38,359 bases of DNA. Origin: Longimicrobiales bacterium (GTDB lineage: Bacteria; Gemmatimonadota; Gemmatimonadetes; Longimicrobiales; RSA9). A program made the translations under genes and the position numbers. The number at the start of each line of letters is the position of its first letter. The stretch's first letter is position 1. The DNA is taken from contig DATHUY010000116.1 of the NCBI GenBank assembly GCA_035461765.1, forward strand, positions 1 to 38,359, given 5' to 3'. This document shows positions 18,725 through 27,892 of the stretch, one piece after another. Below the pieces are notes generated by a model, which did no database searches, had not been told where the DNA came from, and worked only from the letters and a program-made list of their open reading frames with translations.

Positions 18725-20971
18725 CTACAGGTGGACACGATAGGCAACCGCGATATTGCGTCCTGCCGACGGCGCAAAGTCCTTGATTCGGCTCGTGGCT
18801 TCGCGATGCAGCGCGTTCGTCAGGTTGTCCATGCGCACAGTCATCGAATGCAGCCGCCCGAACAGGCGCACGCGTGCGCTCGCGTCGAGGCGCAGAATCG
18901 TGTGGGCGTGCGTCGGTGACTCGTCGGCCGACCCGATCCGGTGCTGCGCCATCTCATGATGCACGTCACCGCCGAGCGACAGGGTACCATTGTCCCAGCG
19001 TGCACTCACGCCCAGGCGCGCGGGCGGCATGAACGAGAGTGGTGTTCCGTCAGCCTGCTCACCCTTCAGGTAGTCACCGCGCACGGCGACGGCCACGGTG
19101 CGGCTCACCGCGGCCTCGATCGACCCCTCCAGACCACTCAGCCGCGCCGGCGCCTGAGCGTATACGAACACGGGCAGCGTGACATCCCCGACGACTGTAT
19201 CCCCTCTCAGGACGGGCTGGATGTAGTCACTGATCCGGTTCGTGAAGGCGGCGACCTGTCCATTGATACGCTGGGTGCGCACGTGGAGGACCGCCTCCAG
19301 TCCGGTGCCACGCTCCTCGCGCAGCGCTGCATCACCGAATTCGACCGAGCCCGTACCCGCATGCGGTGCGCCCGAGAACAGCTCCTCCACGGTCGGCGCG
19401 CGGAACGACCGCGACCCCGTGATACTGGCCGTCACCGCGTCGGACAGCGGTGCGCTCACTCCGATGGAGCCGGAGAACGCGTGGAATGTGCGACGCACCG
19501 CGGCACCGAACTTGGGGCTCTGCCGGGAGTCGATGGCGTACCGGTCATAGCGGGCGCCCGCCTGCAGCGTCGTCTCCGCAACGCCGAGCCCCAGCTCCTG
19601 AAACCCGAATACGCCCCATGTGCGTGAGTCCGCTTCCGGCGTGAGCGCCGCCGGGCCGGCAGCCTCATAGTGCTTCACCAGCGCAGACACACCCCACGCT
19701 CCCTCGCGCAGCGCGCCGACACCGGCCTGCCGCACGAGCACGTTCACCGTCCGCGTCGCCAGCACGAAGCGCTGCTGGACCACGCCGGCGTCATCGATCT
19801 CGTCGTGATCGTAATCCTGCACCGTGAAATCGAGACGCGCCGACGGCAGGATGGCCATCCCCGTGCTCACATCCCCCCGCCCTGCCAGCTCGCGGCGTCC
19901 ACCACGCAGGTCCACCGGCTCCGAGCCCGGTGGCACAGGAAGACCATATGTGAACCCGTACGCGCGCACGGCTGCGGATCCGCTCCAGCGGCGCCCCGTC
20001 CGCGAGAACGCAATGGCTCCGTTCAGACTGCTCACATCCGTGTTCTCCAGACGATCGCCCAGCTCGGGATCGTCACCGATCCGCATGTCGTCCGCCGTGC
20101 GCGCGCCCGCACGGACCGTTACCGACCATGCATCCCCGAGAGGTGCGGCCGCGCGCGCGCTGACCGCGCCTCCCGGGTAGGCGCTCTCCGTCTGCAACGC
20201 GAGCGCCGCCTGCGGACGCAGCGGCATGCCGCCGGACACGTCCCCGGAAATCACATTCACCACGCCGCCAAGCGCATTGTTGCCGTACAGCAGTGTCGCT
20301 GGCCCCCGCACCACTTCCACCCGCTGCGCGCTCAGGGGATCGATCGTCACGCCGTGGTCGCTCGCCGACCCGGCCAGATCGGACGCGCGCTGGCCATCCT
20401 GCAGCACCAGCACACGATCGCCCGTCAATCCGCGCATCACCGGCATGGCCGCCGCCGGGCCATTGGAACGGACGGCGATTCCCGGCTGGTACCTGAGCGT
20501 CTGCGCCAGCGTGCCGCTCAACTCACGGTCGAGCGCCTTGCCCGACAGCTGCGACGTGGCCTGCATCACTGCGGCCGGCACCCGACCCGTCCCGCTCGCC
20601 GTTACCTCGATTCCGCCCAGCGTCAGCGGTGTCGCCTTCAGCCGCAGTTCCAACGGCTCCAGTCCGCCTCCTCCCACATCCACTGCCAGCGAGACCGGCG
20701 CATACCCGATCAGGGATACCTCGACGCGGTATCGGCCGGCGGCGATGCCCGGCAGGCGAAACCGGCCCTCCGCATCCGTCAGTGCGCTCCGCGCCCCGGG
20801 CAGCGCCAGCACCTGCGCCTGCGCGAGGGGTCGTCCCTCGACGTCCCGTACCACGCCCCGGATCTCCTGCGCGGCCAGCGGAGCACTCGAGAGAACTGCG
20901 AGCAGGCCGCACAGCACCGCGCGTCCCGGTCTCCACGGTACCAGGCCGTGCGCGTCCCGGTTTTTAGTCAA
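18725..20971 (-). CDS. TonB-dependent outer-membrane receptor (putative metal receptor)
   Basis: The product is about 748 residues. A signal peptide ends near APLAAQE. Then come a carboxypeptidase-regulatory-like domain (EIRGVVRDVEGRPLAQAQV), a TonB-box-like LGGIEVTAS, a plug domain (with VLVLQDGQRASDL and VEVVRGPATLLYGNNALGG) and a beta-barrel ending in a C-terminal hydrophobic strand. I place the start at the TTG (20971) because AGGAGG lies 5 nt before it; an ATG eight codons upstream (20995) has no such site. The gene diverges from the troABCD-type genes across a shared DtxR-type operator, so the likely cargo is a metal ion or complex, comparable in role to the ZnuD zinc receptor. Substrate choice is inferred. 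Confidence 0.9.
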   Translation of the reverse strand: MTKNRDAHGLVPWRPGRAVLCGLLAVLSSAPLAAQEIRGVVRDVEGRPLAQAQVLALPGARSALTDAEGRFRLPGIAAGRYRVEVSLIGYAPVSLAVDVGGGGLEPLELRLKATPLTLGGIEVTASGTGRVPAAVMQATSQLSGKALDRELSGTLAQTLRYQPGIAVRSNGPAAAMPVMRGLTGDRVLVLQDGQRASDLAGSASDHGVTIDPLSAQRVEVVRGPATLLYGNNALGGVVNVISGDVSGGMPLRPQAALALQTESAYPGGAVSARAAAPLGDAWSVTVRAGARTADDMRIGDDPELGDRLENTDVSSLNGAIAFSRTGRRWSGSAAVRAYGFTYGLPVPPGSEPVDLRGGRRELAGRGDVSTGMAILPSARLDFTVQDYDHDEIDDAGVVQQRFVLATRTVNVLVRQAGVGALREGAWGVSALVKHYEAAGPAALTPEADSRTWGVFGFQELGLGVAETTLQAGARYDRYAIDSRQSPKFGAAVRRTFHAFSGSIGVSAPLSDAVTASITGSRSFRAPTVEELFSGAPHAGTGSVEFGDAALREERGTGLEAVLHVRTQRINGQVAAFTNRISDYIQPVLRGDTVVGDVTLPVFVYAQAPARLSGLEGSIEAAVSRTVAVAVRGDYLKGEQADGTPLSFMPPARLGVSARWDNGTLSLGGDVHHEMAQHRIGSADESPTHAHTILRLDASARVRLFGRLHSMTVRMDNLTNALHREATSRIKDFAPSAGRNIAVAYRVHL

Positions 20972-20976
20972 AAGCC

Positions 20977-20982
20977 CCTCCT
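20977..20982 (-). promoter_or_regulatory. Shine-Dalgarno deciding a TTG start
   Basis: AGGAGG lies on the minus strand 5 nt before a TTG codon at 20971-20969, in frame with the receptor. It favours that codon over the ATG at 20995. Confidence 0.6.
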
Positions 20983-20985
20983 GTC

Positions 20986-20991
20986 TTGACG
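20986..20991 (+). promoter_or_regulatory. Candidate -35 element for troA
   Basis: TTGACG matches the sigma-70 -35 consensus at five of six positions. A spacing of 16-18 nt puts the -10 region inside the DtxR-type box at 21008-21023, where a metal-loaded repressor would block polymerase. No strong -10 hexamer stands out. Confidence 0.45.
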
Positions 20992-21007
20992 CCATCCGAA
21001 CTCAGGG

Positions 21008-21023
21008 TTTAGGTTAGGCTAAA
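21008..21023. promoter_or_regulatory. DtxR/IdeR/MntR-type operator
   Basis: TTTAGGTTAGGCTAAA has inverted ends TTTAG and CTAAA. Its overlapping 14 bases TTAGGTTAGGCTAA are identical to the left part of the classical IdeR/DtxR consensus TTAGGTTAGGCTAACCTAA. It lies in the divergent gap between the TonB receptor and troA, one base before the troA ATG, and a DtxR-family regulator is encoded at the end of the same cluster. Binding with metal should repress both directions. I saw no second copy in the window, though my scan was by eye. Confidence 0.82.
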
Positions 21024-21024
21024 T

Positions 21025-22035
21025 ATGAGAGCCCGGCAAGACTCTGACTCCATGACGGCCCGATTCCGCGCCTGCGTCCCGGCGCGGTCTCTCCATCTCA
21101 TCGCTGCCGCAGCGCTTGCGCTGGCGGGTTGCAGCGGCGACTCCATCCGCCGCGCCGATGACACGCGACTGCGTGTCGTAGCGACGACGGGCATGATCGC
21201 TGATGTCGCCGAACGTGTCGGTGGCCGGCGCGTGCTGATGGAGTCGCTGATGGGTCCGGGAGTGGACCCGCATCTGTACAAGGCGAGTGCGGGCGATGTA
21301 CGGCGTCTGGCGCGTGCGGACCTGGTGCTGTACAACGGGCTGCATCTCGAGGCGGCGATGGGCGAGGTGCTGGAGGAGATGGGGAAGCGGAAGCACACGG
21401 TGGCGGTGACCGACTGGATCGATCGCGGATCGCTGGCTGCGCCGCCGGAGTTTCAGGGCAGCTACGATCCGCACGTGTGGTTCGACGTGCGGCTGTGGAT
21501 GCGTGTGGTACAGCGGATCGAGGCGGCTTATGTGGCGGCGGACTCTGCACACGCGGATGAATATCGCGAGCGGAGTGCGGCGCTGCTGCGCGAAATGGCG
21601 ACGCTGGACGAGTGGGTGCGTGCGCGCGCGGCTGAGGTTCCGCCGGACCGTCGTGTGCTGGTGACCGCGCACGACGCGTTCGGCTATTTCGGCAGGGCAT
21701 ACGGCTTCGAGGTGAAGGGATTGCAGGGCATCAGCACCGCCTCGGAGGCGGGGACGGCGGATGTGCAGCAGCTGGCGGCCGAGATCGCGCGACGCCGGAT
21801 CCCGGCGATCTTCGTGGAGACATCGATCCCGCGGCGCACGATCGAGGCGGTGCAGGCGGCCGTGCGGTCACGCGGCTTCGAGGTAGCGATCGGCGGCGCA
21901 CTGTACTCGGACGCACTAGGCAGCCCGAACACACCTGCGAGCACCTACATGGGGATGGTGCGGAGCAACGTGGAGACGATCGTCGGCGCATTGACGGCGG
22001 GCGGGATCATGGCAGGCGCAATGGAGCGCGAATGA
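21025..22035 (+). CDS. troA: Metal-binding lipoprotein of a Mn/Zn/Fe ABC importer (TroA/ZnuA family)
   Basis: The 336-residue product has a lipobox (LAGC, Cys36) and is a cluster-9 metal-binding protein. The predicted ligands are His83 (GVDPHLY), His150 (SYDPHVWFD), His216 ([10 protein letters not shown]) and Asp296 (YSDALG). The set His-His-His-Asp is that of TroA; PsaA and MntC have Glu at the third position. Transported metal is therefore not fixed by this protein alone. There is no His-rich loop as in ZnuA. The ATG follows the operator by one base, leaving no room for a Shine-Dalgarno site. The message may be leaderless, or the in-frame ATG at 21052 may be used. The stop overlaps the ATPase start by four bases. 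Confidence 0.94.
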
Positions 22036-22829
22036 CGGACGAGACGGCAATCGAAGTGAACGATCTCACGGTCGCGTACCGCGAGCATCCGGTTCTCTGG
22101 GATATCGATCTGACGGTGCCTGCGGGCGTGCTGATGGCGATCGTGGGACCGAACGGGGCGGGCAAGACGACACTGATCAAGGCGATGCTCGGCCTGTTGA
22201 AGCCCGCGGCGGGACAGGTCCTGATTCACGGTCGGCCATATGACGAGCAGCGTCGGCTGATCGCGTACGTCCCGCAGCGCGGCAGTGTGGACTGGGACTT
22301 CCCGACGTCGGTGCTCGATGTCGTGCAGATGGGGCGTTACGGCGCGCTCGGCTGGCTGCGCAGGGTCGGGCGTCGCGAGCGGGACCTGGCGATGACCGCG
22401 CTCGAGAAGGTGGGCATGGAGGATTTTGCGCATCGCCAGATCAGCCAGCTTTCCGGCGGTCAGCAGCAGCGCGTCTTCCTGGCGCGCGCGCTCGTGCAGG
22501 ATGCCCGGGTCTATCTGATGGACGAGCCGTTCCAGGGTGTGGACGCGAAGACCGAGCGGGCGATCGTGACAGTGCTTCAGGCACTGCGTGAAGCGGGCGA
22601 CACCGTCGTGGTAGTACATCACGCGTTGCAGACGGTGCCCGAATACTTCGACTGGGTGACGCTGCTCAACGTGCGCAAGATCGCGGCAGGTCCCGTCGAC
22701 GATGTGTTCACTGCGGAGAATCTGCGCGTGACGTACGGCGGCCGCGTGCCGTTCCACGGCTCCGCATCGCCGCTGCGGGACACGCCGCGCACGGGCGGAA
22801 GCGCGTGGGCTGGCGTGGGCGGAGACTGA
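22032..22829 (+). CDS. troB: Metal ABC transporter ATP-binding protein
   Basis: The 265-residue product has a Walker A motif GPNGAGKT (39-46), Q-loop Gln82, ABC signature LSGGQQQR (140-147), Walker B VYLMDEP (160-166) and H-loop His196. The phrase [19 protein letters not shown] is typical of Mn/Zn/Fe-type importers. It powers transport through the two permeases encoded next. It overlaps troA by ATGA and precedes the first permease by 13 nt, in an operon. The C-terminal 35 residues are variable and Gly/Arg-rich. Confidence 0.95.
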
Positions 22830-22842
22830 GCGCAGCCACCGG

Positions 22843-24012
22843 ATGAATCCGCTCCGCGAGCTGTTCTTCGATTATACGCTGCGCACCGTTGCGCTCGGTG
22901 CGGGCACGCTCGGCATCGTGGCCGGTGCACTCGGCACGTATGCGGTGCTGCGGCGACAGAGCCTGCTGGGTGATGCGATCTCCCACGCCGCTCTTCCCGG
23001 CATCGTGCTCGCCTTCATCCTGACTGGTACGCGGAGCACGCTCGTTCTCGTGCTGGGTGCCGCGCTCGCCGGGTGGCTCGGCACGCTCGTCGTGATGACG
23101 GTGGTGCGGCACAGCCGCTTACCGGAGGACAGTGCGCTGGGGATCGTGCTGTCCGTGTTCTTCGGCGCGGGTCTGGTACTGCTGACGTACGTGCAGAAGC
23201 TGCCTGATGCGTCACAGGCCGGCCTCGACCGCTTTCTTTTCGGCCAGGCCGCAACCATGCTCGAGCGTGATGTCATTGTCATTGCGGCGCTCGGCGCGCT
23301 GGCCCTGCTCGCGGTCTTCGTATTCTGGAAGGAATTCAAGCTCCTCAGCTTCGACCCGGAGTTCGGCGCGTCGCTCGGGATGCCGATGCGGACGATCGAC
23401 ATTCTCCTCACGACGTTTCTCGTCATTGCAATCGTGATCGGGCTGCAGACTGTCGGCGTGGTGCTGATGAGCGCGATGGTGATCGCGCCCGCCGCCGCCG
23501 CGCGCCAGTGGACCAATTCCCTGTCCGTCATGGTGCTTCTTTCGGCGCTTTTCGGCGCCATCGCGGGCGTGACCGGTGCGGTGATCAGCAGCTCGGCCGC
23601 GCACGTCCCGACGGGTCCCACGATCGTCCTCGCGGCAACCACGCTGGTACTCATCTCCATGGCCGTGGCTCCCGAGCGCGGCCTGCTGTGGGCGTCAGTT
23701 CAGCGCAGGAGGCAGCGCCATCAGATCCGCGCGGACGCCGTGCTCGGCGACCTGTACGCACTCGCCGGTCAGCACGAGGGCGAGCACGCGCACGACCTCA
23801 CGGTGCTCGAGGCGATGCGTCTCGGGCGTACCGACGTGCGCCGGGCGCTCGGCGTGCTCGAGGAGCGCGGTCTGGCCCGGCGCGAAGGCGCGAGCGGATG
23901 GACGATCACGCCTGCAGGCCGCGCGGAAGCCGAGCAGGGGACGCGGGACGATCCGGAGGATGGCACGCCGCCGGACCGGGCCGCCCCATCCGGCAGGCGC
24001 GACGGCGTATGA
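22843..24012 (+). CDS. troC: Metal ABC permease with C-terminal winged-helix-like tail (1)
   Basis: The first 290 residues of this 389-residue product are an ABC-3 family permease with about eight transmembrane helices. Conserved blocks are LLGDAISHAALPGI, SFDPEFGASLGMP and GVVLMSAMVIAPAAAARQW. Residues about 299-365 form a soluble domain that resembles the DtxR winged helix: helix VLGDLYALAG, helix-turn-helix with RTDVRRALGVLEERGL, and a wing with GWTITPAGRAEAE. A charged tail follows. Permeases of this family normally end soon after the last helix, so the extension is notable. It may bind DNA, bind a partner or sense metal in the cytoplasm. The gene overlaps the next permease by ATGA. Confidence 0.92.
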   Translation: MNPLRELFFDYTLRTVALGAGTLGIVAGALGTYAVLRRQSLLGDAISHAALPGIVLAFILTGTRSTLVLVLGAALAGWLGTLVVMTVVRHSRLPEDSALGIVLSVFFGAGLVLLTYVQKLPDASQAGLDRFLFGQAATMLERDVIVIAALGALALLAVFVFWKEFKLLSFDPEFGASLGMPMRTIDILLTTFLVIAIVIGLQTVGVVLMSAMVIAPAAAARQWTNSLSVMVLLSALFGAIAGVTGAVISSSAAHVPTGPTIVLAATTLVLISMAVAPERGLLWASVQRRRQRHQIRADAVLGDLYALAGQHEGEHAHDLTVLEAMRLGRTDVRRALGVLEERGLARREGASGWTITPAGRAEAEQGTRDDPEDGTPPDRAAPSGRRDGV

Positions 24013-25118
24013 GCATCGAGCTCGAGATCCAGCTCGTGGCGGTGGTCGTATCCGTCGCGTGCTCACTGGCCGGCGTGTTCCTGGTGCTGCGCCGCATGGC
24101 GCTCATGAGCGACGCGATCAGCCACACGGTGCTGCTCGGCATCGTGCTGGTGTTCTTCATCACGCGTGACATCGCATCACCGTTCCTCGTCCTCGGTGCT
24201 GCGGCGATGGGAGTCGCCACGGTGGGGCTGGTCGAGCTGTTGCGACGCACGCGGCTGGTGCGTGAGGATGCATCGATCGGACTGGTGTTCCCCGCCCTGT
24301 TCAGCATTGCCGTCATTCTGATCACGCGCTACGCGGGCGCCGTGCATCTCGATACCGACGCCGTTCTGCTCGGCGAAATTGCGTTCGCGCCGTTCCGGCG
24401 GCTGGAGGTGGGCGGTCGGGACCTGGGGCCGCGCTCCCTGTGGGTGATGGGCGGCGTGCTGGTATTGAACATTCTCTTCATAACGGCGCTCTACAAGGAG
24501 CTGAAGCTCTCGACGTTCGATCCCGGCCTGGCCGCAGCGCTCGGCTTCGCACCCGGCGTGCTCCATTACGCGTTCATGACGCTGGTATCGATTACGGCAG
24601 TCGGTGCGTTCGACGCGGTCGGTTCAATCCTCGTCGTTGCACTGATGATCACGCCACCCGCTACTGCGTACCTCCTCTCGGACAGTCTGCCGCGGGTGCT
24701 GATCCTGAGCGCGGTCATCGCCGCGGCCGCGGCTCTGGGCGGCTTCTGGACCGCATGGCTCGTCGATGCCTCCATCGCCGGGTGCATGGCGGCCGTGGCG
24801 GGACTGCTGTTCATGCTCGCGTTCCTGCTGGCACCCGAGCGCGGCGTCGTTGCGGTCGCGCGCAGGCGTGAGCGGCAGCGCTGGGAGTTCGCGCGCCTGA
24901 TGCTCGCGATCCACCTGCTGCACCACGAGGGCGCACCCGAGGCCGCCGACGAGAGCCGGGAGACACATCTCGGCGAGCACCTGCGCTGGAAGCCGGCGTT
25001 CGCGCGGCGCGTGGTCGACGAGGCGGAGGAGGATGATCTGCTGCTGCGGCTGCCGGACGGTCGGCTCGAGCTGACGGACGCGGGCAGGGACTCCGCACGG
25101 AAGGCGATGCTGGTCTGA
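24009..25118 (+). CDS. troD: Metal ABC permease with C-terminal winged-helix-like tail (2)
   Basis: With the ATG at 24009, overlapping the preceding stop, the product is 369 residues. Residues 1-285 are a second ABC-3 permease (MSDAISHTVLLGIVL, STFDPGLAAALGF, GSILVVALMITPPATAYLL), so the membrane part is probably a heterodimer as in TroCD. Residues about 289-369 form a soluble extension. Its helix (FARLMLAIHLLHHEG) and HLRWKPAFARRVVDEAEEDDLLL followed by LPDGRLELTDAGRDSA resemble a winged-helix fold, similar in place and type to that of the first permease though weakly alike in sequence. The stop lies 9 nt from the convergent stop of the regulator gene. Confidence 0.92.
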   Translation: MSIELEIQLVAVVVSVACSLAGVFLVLRRMALMSDAISHTVLLGIVLVFFITRDIASPFLVLGAAAMGVATVGLVELLRRTRLVREDASIGLVFPALFSIAVILITRYAGAVHLDTDAVLLGEIAFAPFRRLEVGGRDLGPRSLWVMGGVLVLNILFITALYKELKLSTFDPGLAAALGFAPGVLHYAFMTLVSITAVGAFDAVGSILVVALMITPPATAYLLSDSLPRVLILSAVIAAAAALGGFWTAWLVDASIAGCMAAVAGLLFMLAFLLAPERGVVAVARRRERQRWEFARLMLAIHLLHHEGAPEAADESRETHLGEHLRWKPAFARRVVDEAEEDDLLLRLPDGRLELTDAGRDSARKAMLV

Positions 25119-25127
25119 GCAGCCGCT

Positions 25128-25799
25128 TCAGCGCTGCGGCGTGCCTTCCTTCGGCTCGACCTTGATCTGCTTCGCCAGGTCACGCCCGACGATCTGTTCC
25201 GTACCGTTGATACGGACGCGGAGCGGGCCGTTGAACGGCGCGACCTCGAGAACTTCGAGCTCGGCGCCCGGTCGCAGCTGGAGCTGGGCGAGGTAGCGAA
25301 GCGCGGCCGCGTCCTCATCGGGCACGCGCCGCAGTGTTGCGCCATCACCCGCACACAGCTCGGCCAGCGTGGGGAACGGGTGCTCGTGGAACTCGCCTTC
25401 AGCGGCGGGTATGGGGGCGCCGTGCGGATCGGCGTCCGGCTGGCCGAGCACACCCGCCATGCGATCGATCAGCTCGTCGGTTACGACGTGCTCCAGTCGT
25501 TCCGCCTCCTCGTGAACACGATCCCACGTGTAGCCGAGTACATCGACGAGGAACAGCTCCAGAATGCGATGGCGGCGAATGGTACGGATCGCGTTGTTCG
25601 CGCCGTCCTCGGTGAGCCGCGCGCCGTAATAGCGGGTATGCTCGACGAGGCCGGCCTCCGCGAGTCGCTTGAGCATGCCCGTTACGGAGCCGGCGGCAAT
25701 GCCCAGGCGTTCCGCGATGGCCGACGTGCTCACGGGCGCGCCCGCTTCGGAGAGCTGATAAATCGCCTTGAGATAGTCCTCGACTGCGGGCGTCGTCAT
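25128..25799 (-). CDS. mntR: DtxR/MntR-family metal-dependent repressor, Mn-type ligands
   Basis: With ATG 25799 the product is 223 residues, with an N-terminal winged helix (MTTPAVEDYLKAIYQL to GARLTEDG), a dimerisation/metal domain, and a C-terminal FeoA/SH3-like domain as in DtxR and IdeR. Ligand positions are Asp8, Glu100, Glu103 and His104 for the main site, and His77, Glu81 and His96 for the ancillary site. Asp8 and Glu100 stand where DtxR has Met10 and Cys102, the change known to favour manganese over iron. Residue 11 is Lys where Bacillus MntR has Glu11. It probably binds the box at 21008-21023 when loaded with metal. It is convergent with the permease gene and diverges from the channel gene. 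Confidence 0.93.
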   Translation of the reverse strand: MTTPAVEDYLKAIYQLSEAGAPVSTSAIAERLGIAAGSVTGMLKRLAEAGLVEHTRYYGARLTEDGANNAIRTIRRHRILELFLVDVLGYTWDRVHEEAERLEHVVTDELIDRMAGVLGQPDADPHGAPIPAAEGEFHEHPFPTLAELCAGDGATLRRVPDEDAAALRYLAQLQLRPGAELEVLEVAPFNGPLRVRINGTEQIVGRDLAKQIKVEPKEGTPQR

Positions 25800-25954: not shown

Positions 25955-27892
25955 ATGCCACAGCGTCTGCCCAACCTGCTGATGTTCCGCGTCGAGCGAG
26001 TCATGCTCCGCGGCCCGCAGTACCGGCTGCTCGTGATCGCTGCCCTCATCGGCCTCATCTCGATCGTGGGCGGAGCCATCATCCACTACTTCAATGCCGG
26101 ATCGGACCTCGGCTTCGCCGGTGCCGTGTGGTGGGCCTTTCTGCGCCTGACGGACCCGGGCTATCTCGGCGACGACACCGGCACCGTCGAGCGTACGGTA
26201 TCCACTGTACTGACGGTGCTCGGTTACGTGCTGTTCCTCGGTGCACTCGTGGCCATCATGACGCAGTGGCTGCACGAGCGCATGAGCGAGCTGGAAGCGG
26301 GGCTCACGCCGATCGCGCAGCGCGATCACATCCTGATCATCGGCTGGAACAACCGCACGACGACAATCGTGCGCGAGCTGGTCATGTCGAGTGAGCGCGT
26401 TCGACGTTTCCTGCAGCGCCGCAACGCCCGCTCACTCCGTCTCGCGATCCTCGCCGATGAGGTCACGACGGCTCTCAGCGTCGAGCTGCGCGAGCGCCTC
26501 GGCAGCCTCTGGAACGAGCGACAGGTCATTCTGCGCACCGGCTCGCCGCTGCGGCTCGAACACCTGCGACGTGTCGACTTCATTCGCGCGGCTGCCGTCA
26601 TCATGCCGGCCGCCGATTTCGGACCGGGCGGTCCCGACCAGGCGGACACGCGCACGATCAAGACACTGCTCACGATGACCAACCATCCGGCCTCCGAAGG
26701 GCGTGAGCTGCCGCTCGCCGTCGCAGAGATCTTCGATTCGCGCAAGCTCGGTATCGCGGAGCGGGCATACGGCGGACCGATCGAAATCCTCGCGAGCGAT
26801 TCCATCATCAGCCGTCTGCTCGCACAGAATGTCCGGCACCCGGGTCTGTCCCACATTTTCGGCGAGCTCCTGACCCATGGTCACGGCAACGAGATATACC
26901 TTCGTGCTGCCAGCGACCACGTCGGCCGGTCCGTCTTCGACGTGGCACGTGCCTATCCTCGCGCCGTGCTGCTCGGCATCGTCCGCACCGACGGTCGCAA
27001 TCTCACGCCCATGCTGAACCCGGCATCGGACACGGTCCTCGAGCGCGACGACCGCCTCGTGCTGCTGGCCCACAGCTTCAAGGCAACCGCTGCGGCGCCT
27101 GCTGATGGACCATCGCCGCAACCAGCACCGGTCAGACGCATACGTCCCGGCACCTCGGGCGGAACGCTGCGCGTGCTGGTCCTGGGCTGGAGCCACAAGG
27201 TGCCGGCACTGCTCCGCGAATTCGACAGCTACGATGATGAGCAATTCGAGATCGACATCATCTCGACTGTATCCGTCGAACGACGCGAGGCCGCTCTGCA
27301 GCGGCACGACTTCACACCGCGCCATGTCGCCGTCACGCACGTGGACGGCGACTTCACCACGCCGTCGGTTCTGCAGCGCGCCGACGTGAACGGCTACGAC
27401 AGCATCGTGCTGCTCGGCAGCGATCGGCTCGGATCCGGCGAGGAGTCCGATGCACGCTCGATCCTGGGTTACCTGCTGCTCAGGGACATCCTGCCGGAGA
27501 ACGCGCGGCCGAACATTCTGGTCGAGCTGCTCGATCCGGGGAACGTCGCGCTGTTCCGGCGCCGCCGCGGTGAGGTGATCGTAAGTCCCGTGATCCTGAG
27601 CCACATGCTGGCGCAGGTGGCGCTACGGCGCGAGCTGCGCGCCGTGTTCGATGAGCTGTTCGGGCCGGGCGGCCCGGAGATCATCTTCCGACCGCCCGCC
27701 GATTACGGCCTCGAGCAGCGTGACGTCACGTTCCAGCAGATCGAGGACGCAGCGACCGCGCATGGCGAGGTGGCGCTCGGCGTGCGACCCCACGACAGCC
27801 ACAGCGCCGGCGGCACAGCACTCAATCCCTCCCGCGATCGTACGTTCTCACTGACCGCGGATGACGAGATCGTGGTGCTGACGACGTACTGA
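25955..27892 (+). CDS. CASTOR/POLLUX-related ion channel with two RCK-like domains
   Basis: The 645-residue product has one helix at about 23-45, a pore loop with a filter-like LTDPGYLG (65-72) and a second helix at about 82-105. Two large nucleotide-binding RCK-like domains follow, starting near 124 (HILIIGWNNRTTTIVREL) and 398 (LRVLVLGWSHKVPALLREF). This is the plan of CASTOR, POLLUX and SYM8 channels. The filter is not the TVGYG of potassium channels; plant members are reported to conduct cations, including calcium. The ion passed here is unknown. A 155-bp gap separates it from the divergent mntR-like gene, and no metal operator is obvious there. Its stop abuts the convergent M56 stop with no gap. 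Confidence 0.9.
   Translation: MPQRLPNLLMFRVERVMLRGPQYRLLVIAALIGLISIVGGAIIHYFNAGSDLGFAGAVWWAFLRLTDPGYLGDDTGTVERTVSTVLTVLGYVLFLGALVAIMTQWLHERMSELEAGLTPIAQRDHILIIGWNNRTTTIVRELVMSSERVRRFLQRRNARSLRLAILADEVTTALSVELRERLGSLWNERQVILRTGSPLRLEHLRRVDFIRAAAVIMPAADFGPGGPDQADTRTIKTLLTMTNHPASEGRELPLAVAEIFDSRKLGIAERAYGGPIEILASDSIISRLLAQNVRHPGLSHIFGELLTHGHGNEIYLRAASDHVGRSVFDVARAYPRAVLLGIVRTDGRNLTPMLNPASDTVLERDDRLVLLAHSFKATAAAPADGPSPQPAPVRRIRPGTSGGTLRVLVLGWSHKVPALLREFDSYDDEQFEIDIISTVSVERREAALQRHDFTPRHVAVTHVDGDFTTPSVLQRADVNGYDSIVLLGSDRLGSGEESDARSILGYLLLRDILPENARPNILVELLDPGNVALFRRRRGEVIVSPVILSHMLAQVALRRELRAVFDELFGPGGPEIIFRPPADYGLEQRDVTFQQIEDAATAHGEVALGVRPHDSHSAGGTALNPSRDRTFSLTADDEIVVLTTY

Follow-up and report, generated by a model that had tools for sequence, protein, structure and literature searches.

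The importer operon and its neighbourhood

The window, the whole stretch of 38,359 nucleotides that was analysed, comes from a Longimicrobiales genome of 4.68 Mb and contains an operon for an ABC-3 metal importer. The first gene encodes a metal-binding lipoprotein of the ZnuA/MntC type (21025..22035, + strand; PF01297, E 7.8e-78), which has AztC- and MntC-like NCBIfam matches below cut-off and may start instead at an alternative ATG at 21049. The second encodes an ABC ATPase of the Mn/Fe type (22032..22829, +; PF00005, E 2.3e-32), whose top NCBIfam matches are Mn/Fe ABC ATPases, likewise below cut-off. Two permease genes that overlap by ATGA follow, permease 1 (22843..24012, +; 389 residues) and the TroD-type permease 2 (24009..25118, +; 369 residues), and a short winged-helix tail is predicted at the end of each product. 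The ABC-3 family PF00950 covers residues 12-275 of permease 1 (E 2.1e-69, 234 bits) and residues 9-274 of permease 2 (E 1.4e-44, 153 bits); both scores exceed the curated cut-off of 20.1 and place the two proteins in the ABC-3 family. The gene order, substrate-binding protein (SBP), ATPase, permease and permease, with ZnuA and ABC_tran partners, is that of an ABC-3 metal importer.

Convergent with the operon lies the gene of a stand-alone DtxR/MntR-family regulator (25128..25799, -) containing PF01325 (wHTH), PF02742 (metal-binding/dimerisation) and PF04023 (FeoA, SH3-like), so the separate regulator reported for this cluster in the first-pass annotation is indeed present. Divergent from the operon is a TonB-dependent receptor (18725..20995, -; PF00593, E 3.4e-31; PF07715, E 1.9e-20), possibly the outer-membrane partner for the importer's metal or for a metal chelate. 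Adjoining the regulator, positions 25955-27892 (+) encode a protein of 645 residues that has a membrane segment at its N terminus and is otherwise largely a long soluble portion; judged by eye only, it looks like a CASTOR/POLLUX-type ion channel.

Fold and DtxR likeness of the permease tails

Beyond the Pfam ABC-3 body, 114 residues are left in permease 1 and 95 in permease 2. They include a tail of about 90 residues on each permease, given as cytoplasmic: tail 1 (23683..23952, +) spans residues 281-370 of permease 1 and tail 2 (24849..25115, +) residues 281-369 of permease 2. HTH families in Pfam match tail 1 weakly, and PF01325 matches neither tail directly. Tail 2 has no match in Pfam or NCBIfam, so family profiles and structure prediction were needed; the models were made from alignments of 43 permease-1 tails and 39 permease-2 tails from related loci. 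AlphaFold2 predicts a winged helix for tail 1 (pLDDT 91.9, pTM 0.82) and for tail 2 (pLDDT 95.8, pTM 0.85), with the element order H1-H2-H3-strand-wing-strand-H4 in both.

Structure comparison places tail 2 firmly with the DtxR family. Its leading Foldseek matches all belong to that family (IdeR 7b24, E 6.4e-4, MntR and DtxR), and in VIA comparison E. coli MntR 2h09 comes first (Z 13.3, rmsd 2.0 over 85 residues). For tail 1, 2h09 is again the first VIA match (Z 10.7, rmsd 2.9 over 89 residues), tied with unrelated MarR and PadR winged helices, so its DtxR assignment rests mainly on profiles. Against the PDB, the tail 2 family profile is led by IdeR and DtxR (E 0.013), and that of tail 1 finds ScaR, IdeR and DtxR together with ribosomal winged helices. 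Using hhalign, the tails align to MntR-N with probabilities of 95.1% (tail 1) and 93.6% (tail 2), and to the wHTH of full permease-DtxR fusions with 98.7% (E 1.6e-16) and 96.2%; column-shuffled controls reach about 2% at most. These profile-profile and fold comparisons make the winged helix of the tails homologous to Fe_dep_repress, and an alignment of tail 1 with tail 2 at 95.7% indicates that the tails are homologous to each other. A Pfam scan finds PF02742, the metal-binding/dimerisation domain, in neither tail.

A DtxR-type winged-helix fold and a DtxR ancestry for both tails are thus almost certain, and the first-pass annotation was right in proposing a C-terminal winged-helix-like domain of DtxR type on each permease. 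The extents it gave, about residues 299-365 and 289-369, start too late, since helix 1 is long and begins at about residue 282. This helix is probably continuous with the last membrane helix.

Distribution of the tails

ABC-3 permeases had been assumed to end normally after their last helix. ZnuB-like permeases of the same phylum (L067-L075) end 0-4 residues past the body, and the solved permease PsaC, which has 282-290 residues, is also tailless, so the tail is not the rule for ABC-3. Within the phylum, about 20 of 298 sampled genomes encode a permease 2 with a tail, at 63-72% identity (92% in the congener). A further sample, the best 80 loci from a species-level genome collection, consists of nearest relatives and does not sample ABC-3 permeases at random. 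Of its 80 permease-1 proteins, 57 have a short tail, 13 are untailed and 10 have a long tail, and about 72 of the 80 permease-2 proteins have a short tail; five permease-2 tails binned as long are short tails with a misplaced body end. The occurrence of tails on both permeases, singled out as striking in the annotation, is real, but it is common in this subfamily.

Among the hosts of the sampled loci are Flavobacteriia, Rhodothermaceae, Anaerolineales, Acidobacteriota, Dadabacteria, Tissierella and Spirochaetes. More broadly, short tails on one or both of two tandem permeases are found in Gemmatimonadota, Bacteroidota, Chloroflexota, Acidobacteriota, Spirochaetota (TroD-type), Tissierella and others. 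The possibility that the tails are confined to this genome or phylum was rejected, as they are found across many phyla. The tail-2 profile has one match per genome in 26 of 247 Bacteroidota genomes, in frames long enough for a permease, and the five matches retrieved are all permeases. When a single tail is lost, it is nearly always tail 1, not tail 2. In spirochaete genomes (2.7-2.8 Mb, and one of 1.1 Mb), the first permease is untailed and the second tailed.

Several loci depart from the common arrangement. A spirochaete locus (L164) encodes a permease 2 that is 54% identical to the present one, yet both of its permeases are untailed, so tail 2 can be lost. In an Anaerolineae locus (L116; PWVB01000240.1, 1471-3723), both permeases carry permease-2-type tails (IHLLNHE..HLQQHLQW) while the body of the first is of permease-1 type, a tail swap or duplication; this genome has two matches to the tail-2 profile, not one. 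Most permease-2 tails of Flavobacteriia (L104-L144) run past the winged helix into a conserved ..MK.DFFLFRG ending.

Descent from permease-repressor fusions

A complete DtxR repressor occupies the position of the tail in L063, L064 and L065, from the same phylum, and in L148, L150, L151, L153 and L155, from Bacteroidota and allies. These full fusions combine the winged helix with the metal-binding/dimerisation domain, to which L063 adds FeoA; an Anoxybacillus locus (L149) has a long tail that diverges in its second half. The partner permease is untailed in the Bacteroidota-type and Anoxybacillus long-fusion loci (that of L148 is off the contig). In Chloroflexi loci L140, L143, L147 and L154, permease 1 has a winged helix and a shrunken second domain that keeps an LWxLY remnant and lacks the usual HVHEDA..EH ligand motif, alongside a short-tailed permease 2. 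Such a permease 1 apparently carries a decayed DtxR tail and would be an evolutionary intermediate.

In a quick tree of permease bodies with a distant outgroup, some full-DtxR permeases branch basally in the permease-1 clade and others fall outside both clades. The tailed permease 2 sequences form one clade in it (98% SH-aLRT), next to the partner permeases of full fusions, which are untailed. That tail 1 shares W353 with most full fusions supports descent. The simplest reading would be that an ancestral permease-DtxR fusion was truncated; its order of events is one we infer, the direction being taken from the quick tree.

Selection and conserved residues

Comparison of this genome with its congener gives a dN/dS of 0.045 for the body of permease 1 and 0.049 for that of permease 2, 0.086 for tail 1 and 0.137 for tail 2. 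The last residues of permease 1, an internal control, give 0.66. The tails are under purifying selection. Together with conservation, this rules out that they are ordinary variable C-termini, except for the last ~20 residues of permease 1.

Conservation is concentrated in a few residues. Among permease-1 tails H311 is present in 73/74 and H317 in 72/74, and W353 is also near invariant; among permease-2 tails H302, H306, E315 and W327 are each present in 89/90, H324 in 84/90 and H320 in 71/90. H311, H317 and W353 in tail 1 and H302, H306 and W327 in tail 2 reach 5-6 bits, and near-invariant positions lie around the helix 1-helix 2 junction. Histidine at position 311 is found in none of the nine long fusions, in 73 of the 74 short tails and in all four intermediates.

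The DNA-reading parts show a different picture. Conservation in 56 MntR proteins taken from the same loci is highest in the recognition helix and wing, at 2.6 bits per site, whereas in both tails these parts reach 1.7-1.8; the tails thus lack the conservation of the recognition helix that marks the DtxR/MntR family (1.7 vs 2.6 bits per site). The marker [STA][VAT][TSN].M occurs in 54/56 MntR and in 0/82 tail sequences, and the long fusions are without it too. The mean net charge of the winged-helix domain is -0.6 for tail 1 and -2.1 for tail 2, against +3.5 for MntR-N, and tail 2 of this operon has a net charge of -6.

Transcriptional control of the operon

A DtxR/MntR-type palindrome, TTTAGGTTAGGCTAAA, lies between the TonB receptor and the importer operon (21008..21023, no strand assigned) and is a probable operator. 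It is imperfect: a palindrome scan of 20941-21080 missed it, and it was spotted by eye and then checked as a pattern. The relaxed pattern TTTAGGYNNRSCTAAA has a single match in the 4.68 Mb genome, at this site, and none are expected from shuffles. Another 17 loci have a similar palindrome close to the start of the SBP gene, among them L058 and L059, where tail 1 is lost. Being unique in the genome, the site at 21008-21023 may serve both the TonB receptor and the importer.

The stand-alone regulator is the one PF02742 protein of this genome, and a PF02742 protein is present in 23/23 genomes searched. It is encoded beside the permeases in many loci and elsewhere in the genome in most Gemmatimonadota. 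The regulator and the palindrome look sufficient for gene control of the importer.

Proposed role of the tails

The annotation had offered three functional ideas, namely membrane-tethered DNA-binding units, docking sites for the regulator, and cytoplasmic gates sensing metal. Of these, a metal-sensing or gating role in the cytoplasm appears to fit the sequence data best. A DtxR-family repressor would once have been fused to a permease of this type, and the tails would descend from its DNA-binding head, the metal-binding/dimerisation half having been lost and the winged helix kept on one or both permeases. The tail would have given up its repressor role and would be held in the cytoplasm, next to the ATPases, on a helix that extends the last membrane helix, where it would control the importer itself and not genes. 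Most likely, incoming or cytosolic metal would be bound by the His/Glu set at the helix 1-helix 2 junction, and with plentiful metal the tail would slow transport. Transcription would be handled by the stand-alone DtxR/MntR protein on the palindrome at 21008.

From these patterns we infer metal binding, transport control and the loss of DNA binding. The reading as a whole, that a former repressor's winged helix is no longer a repressor and regulates the importer, most likely through a metal-binding His/Glu set, has in our judgement slightly less than an even chance of being right. Its fullest form is more tentative, and we would sooner expect part of it to fail than all of it to hold: a self-regulating importer in many phyla, TroD-type permeases included, in which a DtxR head with neither its metal half nor its DNA role has gained a new His/Glu metal site and acts as a metal-responsive gate. 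The conserved His/Glu/Trp residues can instead be structural or part of an interface, and H320 and H324 vary among permease-2 tails. The repeated losses of tail 1, together with L164, where both tails are missing, indicate that the domain is not essential for transport.

An interface is what would be expected if the tails were an assembly module, in which each of the two paralogous tails binds the other or the ATPase dimer and stabilises the permease-1/permease-2 complex with no sensing. The tails are homologous, the two subunits that carry them are expected to pair, and conservation is strongest at W327 and on the helix 1-helix 2 face, as it would be at an interface. But at least 13 of the 80 loci have lost tail 1 and kept tail 2, so tail-tail pairing is not obligatory, and near-invariant His/Glu residues are unusual for a purely structural interface. 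This explanation is unlikely, though it deserves serious weight.

That the tails are DNA-binding units, membrane-tethered as first suggested or cleaved like a reduced YtgC-YtgR, is improbable. The DtxR-family fold and the precedent of a released DtxR domain, YtgR, speak for it, a neutral surface is compatible with DNA binding, and the full fusions are also without the MntR recognition marker. Against it, the tails have no dimerisation/metal domain, their recognition helix is weakly conserved, the domain is neutral to acidic (-6 in tail 2 here), and a free regulator with a probable operator is already present. A transport-regulating domain is favoured over tethered DNA binding because regulator and unique palindrome seem sufficient, the recognition helix is weakly conserved and the His/Glu/Trp set is near invariant.

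We give an equally small chance to docking, by which a tail would bind the stand-alone DtxR/MntR protein at the membrane and couple import to repression. Tail and regulator are homologous and their genes are neighbours in many loci, but most Gemmatimonadota encode the regulator at another place in the genome, and the tails lack the dimerisation domain by which DtxR proteins pair. A functionless remnant of the former fusion, which the repeated loss of tail 1 might suggest, is hardly credible given tail dN/dS values of 0.086 and 0.137, near-invariant residues across phyla and a tail 2 that is almost never lost.

Comparison with known systems

The nearest known kind is the chlamydial permease-repressor fusion YtgC-YtgR (CT069), whose DtxR part is freed by cleavage, binds promoter DNA and represses genes (PMC5599777, PMC7755916). 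The earlier remark that ABC-3-DtxR fusions have no described function therefore has to be withdrawn. Orthologous fusions are reported from 11 phyla (as cited in PMC5599777). Like the importer described here, YtgC-YtgR joins an ABC-3 permease to a C-terminal DtxR-family winged helix and has its partner permease in a separate gene. YtgR, however, keeps the metal-binding/dimerisation domain, whereas the present tails are a winged helix only, on both permeases, and stand beside a separate DtxR/MntR regulator. A complete DtxR repressor continuous with the ABC-3 permease, which defines the YtgC-YtgR kind, is absent here, where only the winged helix is found; the tailed permeases are therefore a reduced variant of that kind and not members of it. 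No description of the reduced, short-tailed form was found in the literature searched, which covered a minority of the subscription journals. Permease-repressor fusions are thus known, and what is added is that the reduced form is widespread and has its own near-invariant His/Glu/Trp set.

The N-terminal domain of DtxR, IdeR and MntR resembles the tails in fold and profile. The tails differ from these proteins in having no PF02742, in the loss of the recognition-helix signature, in new conserved histidines and in being membrane-anchored. The solved importers PsaBC (7kyo/7kyp, E ~1e-72) and ZnuB (9oko, E 1.2e-32) have the same transmembrane body and, unlike these permeases, no C-terminal domain. 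In the MetNI and ModBC importers, a C-terminal cytoplasmic domain slows import when cytosolic substrate is high. These regulatory domains sit on the ATPase and have folds other than the winged-helix tails, and MetNI and ModBC may serve as a working analogy for control of transport by a tail. If the tails sense metal, they would provide a fast, built-in brake on the importer beside the slow control of transcription, and what was once a DNA-binding domain would have been taken over to control transport.

The TroABCD-TroR system of Treponema is also like the present one, in that a two-permease metal importer is accompanied by a stand-alone DtxR-family regulator. In spirochaetes with genomes of 1.1 and 2.8 Mb, the second permease has the HHE...W winged-helix tail of permease 2, and the TroC-type first permease, unlike permease 1 here, has no tail. 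This pattern, with a tail on the second permease only, fits the published Treponema lengths of 298-304 residues for TroC and 366-367 for TroD (PMC2628430 Table 1). By these lengths and by homology, the tailed spirochaete permeases are probably TroD, and the prediction of metal-responsive control extends to the TroD-type permeases of spirochaetes.
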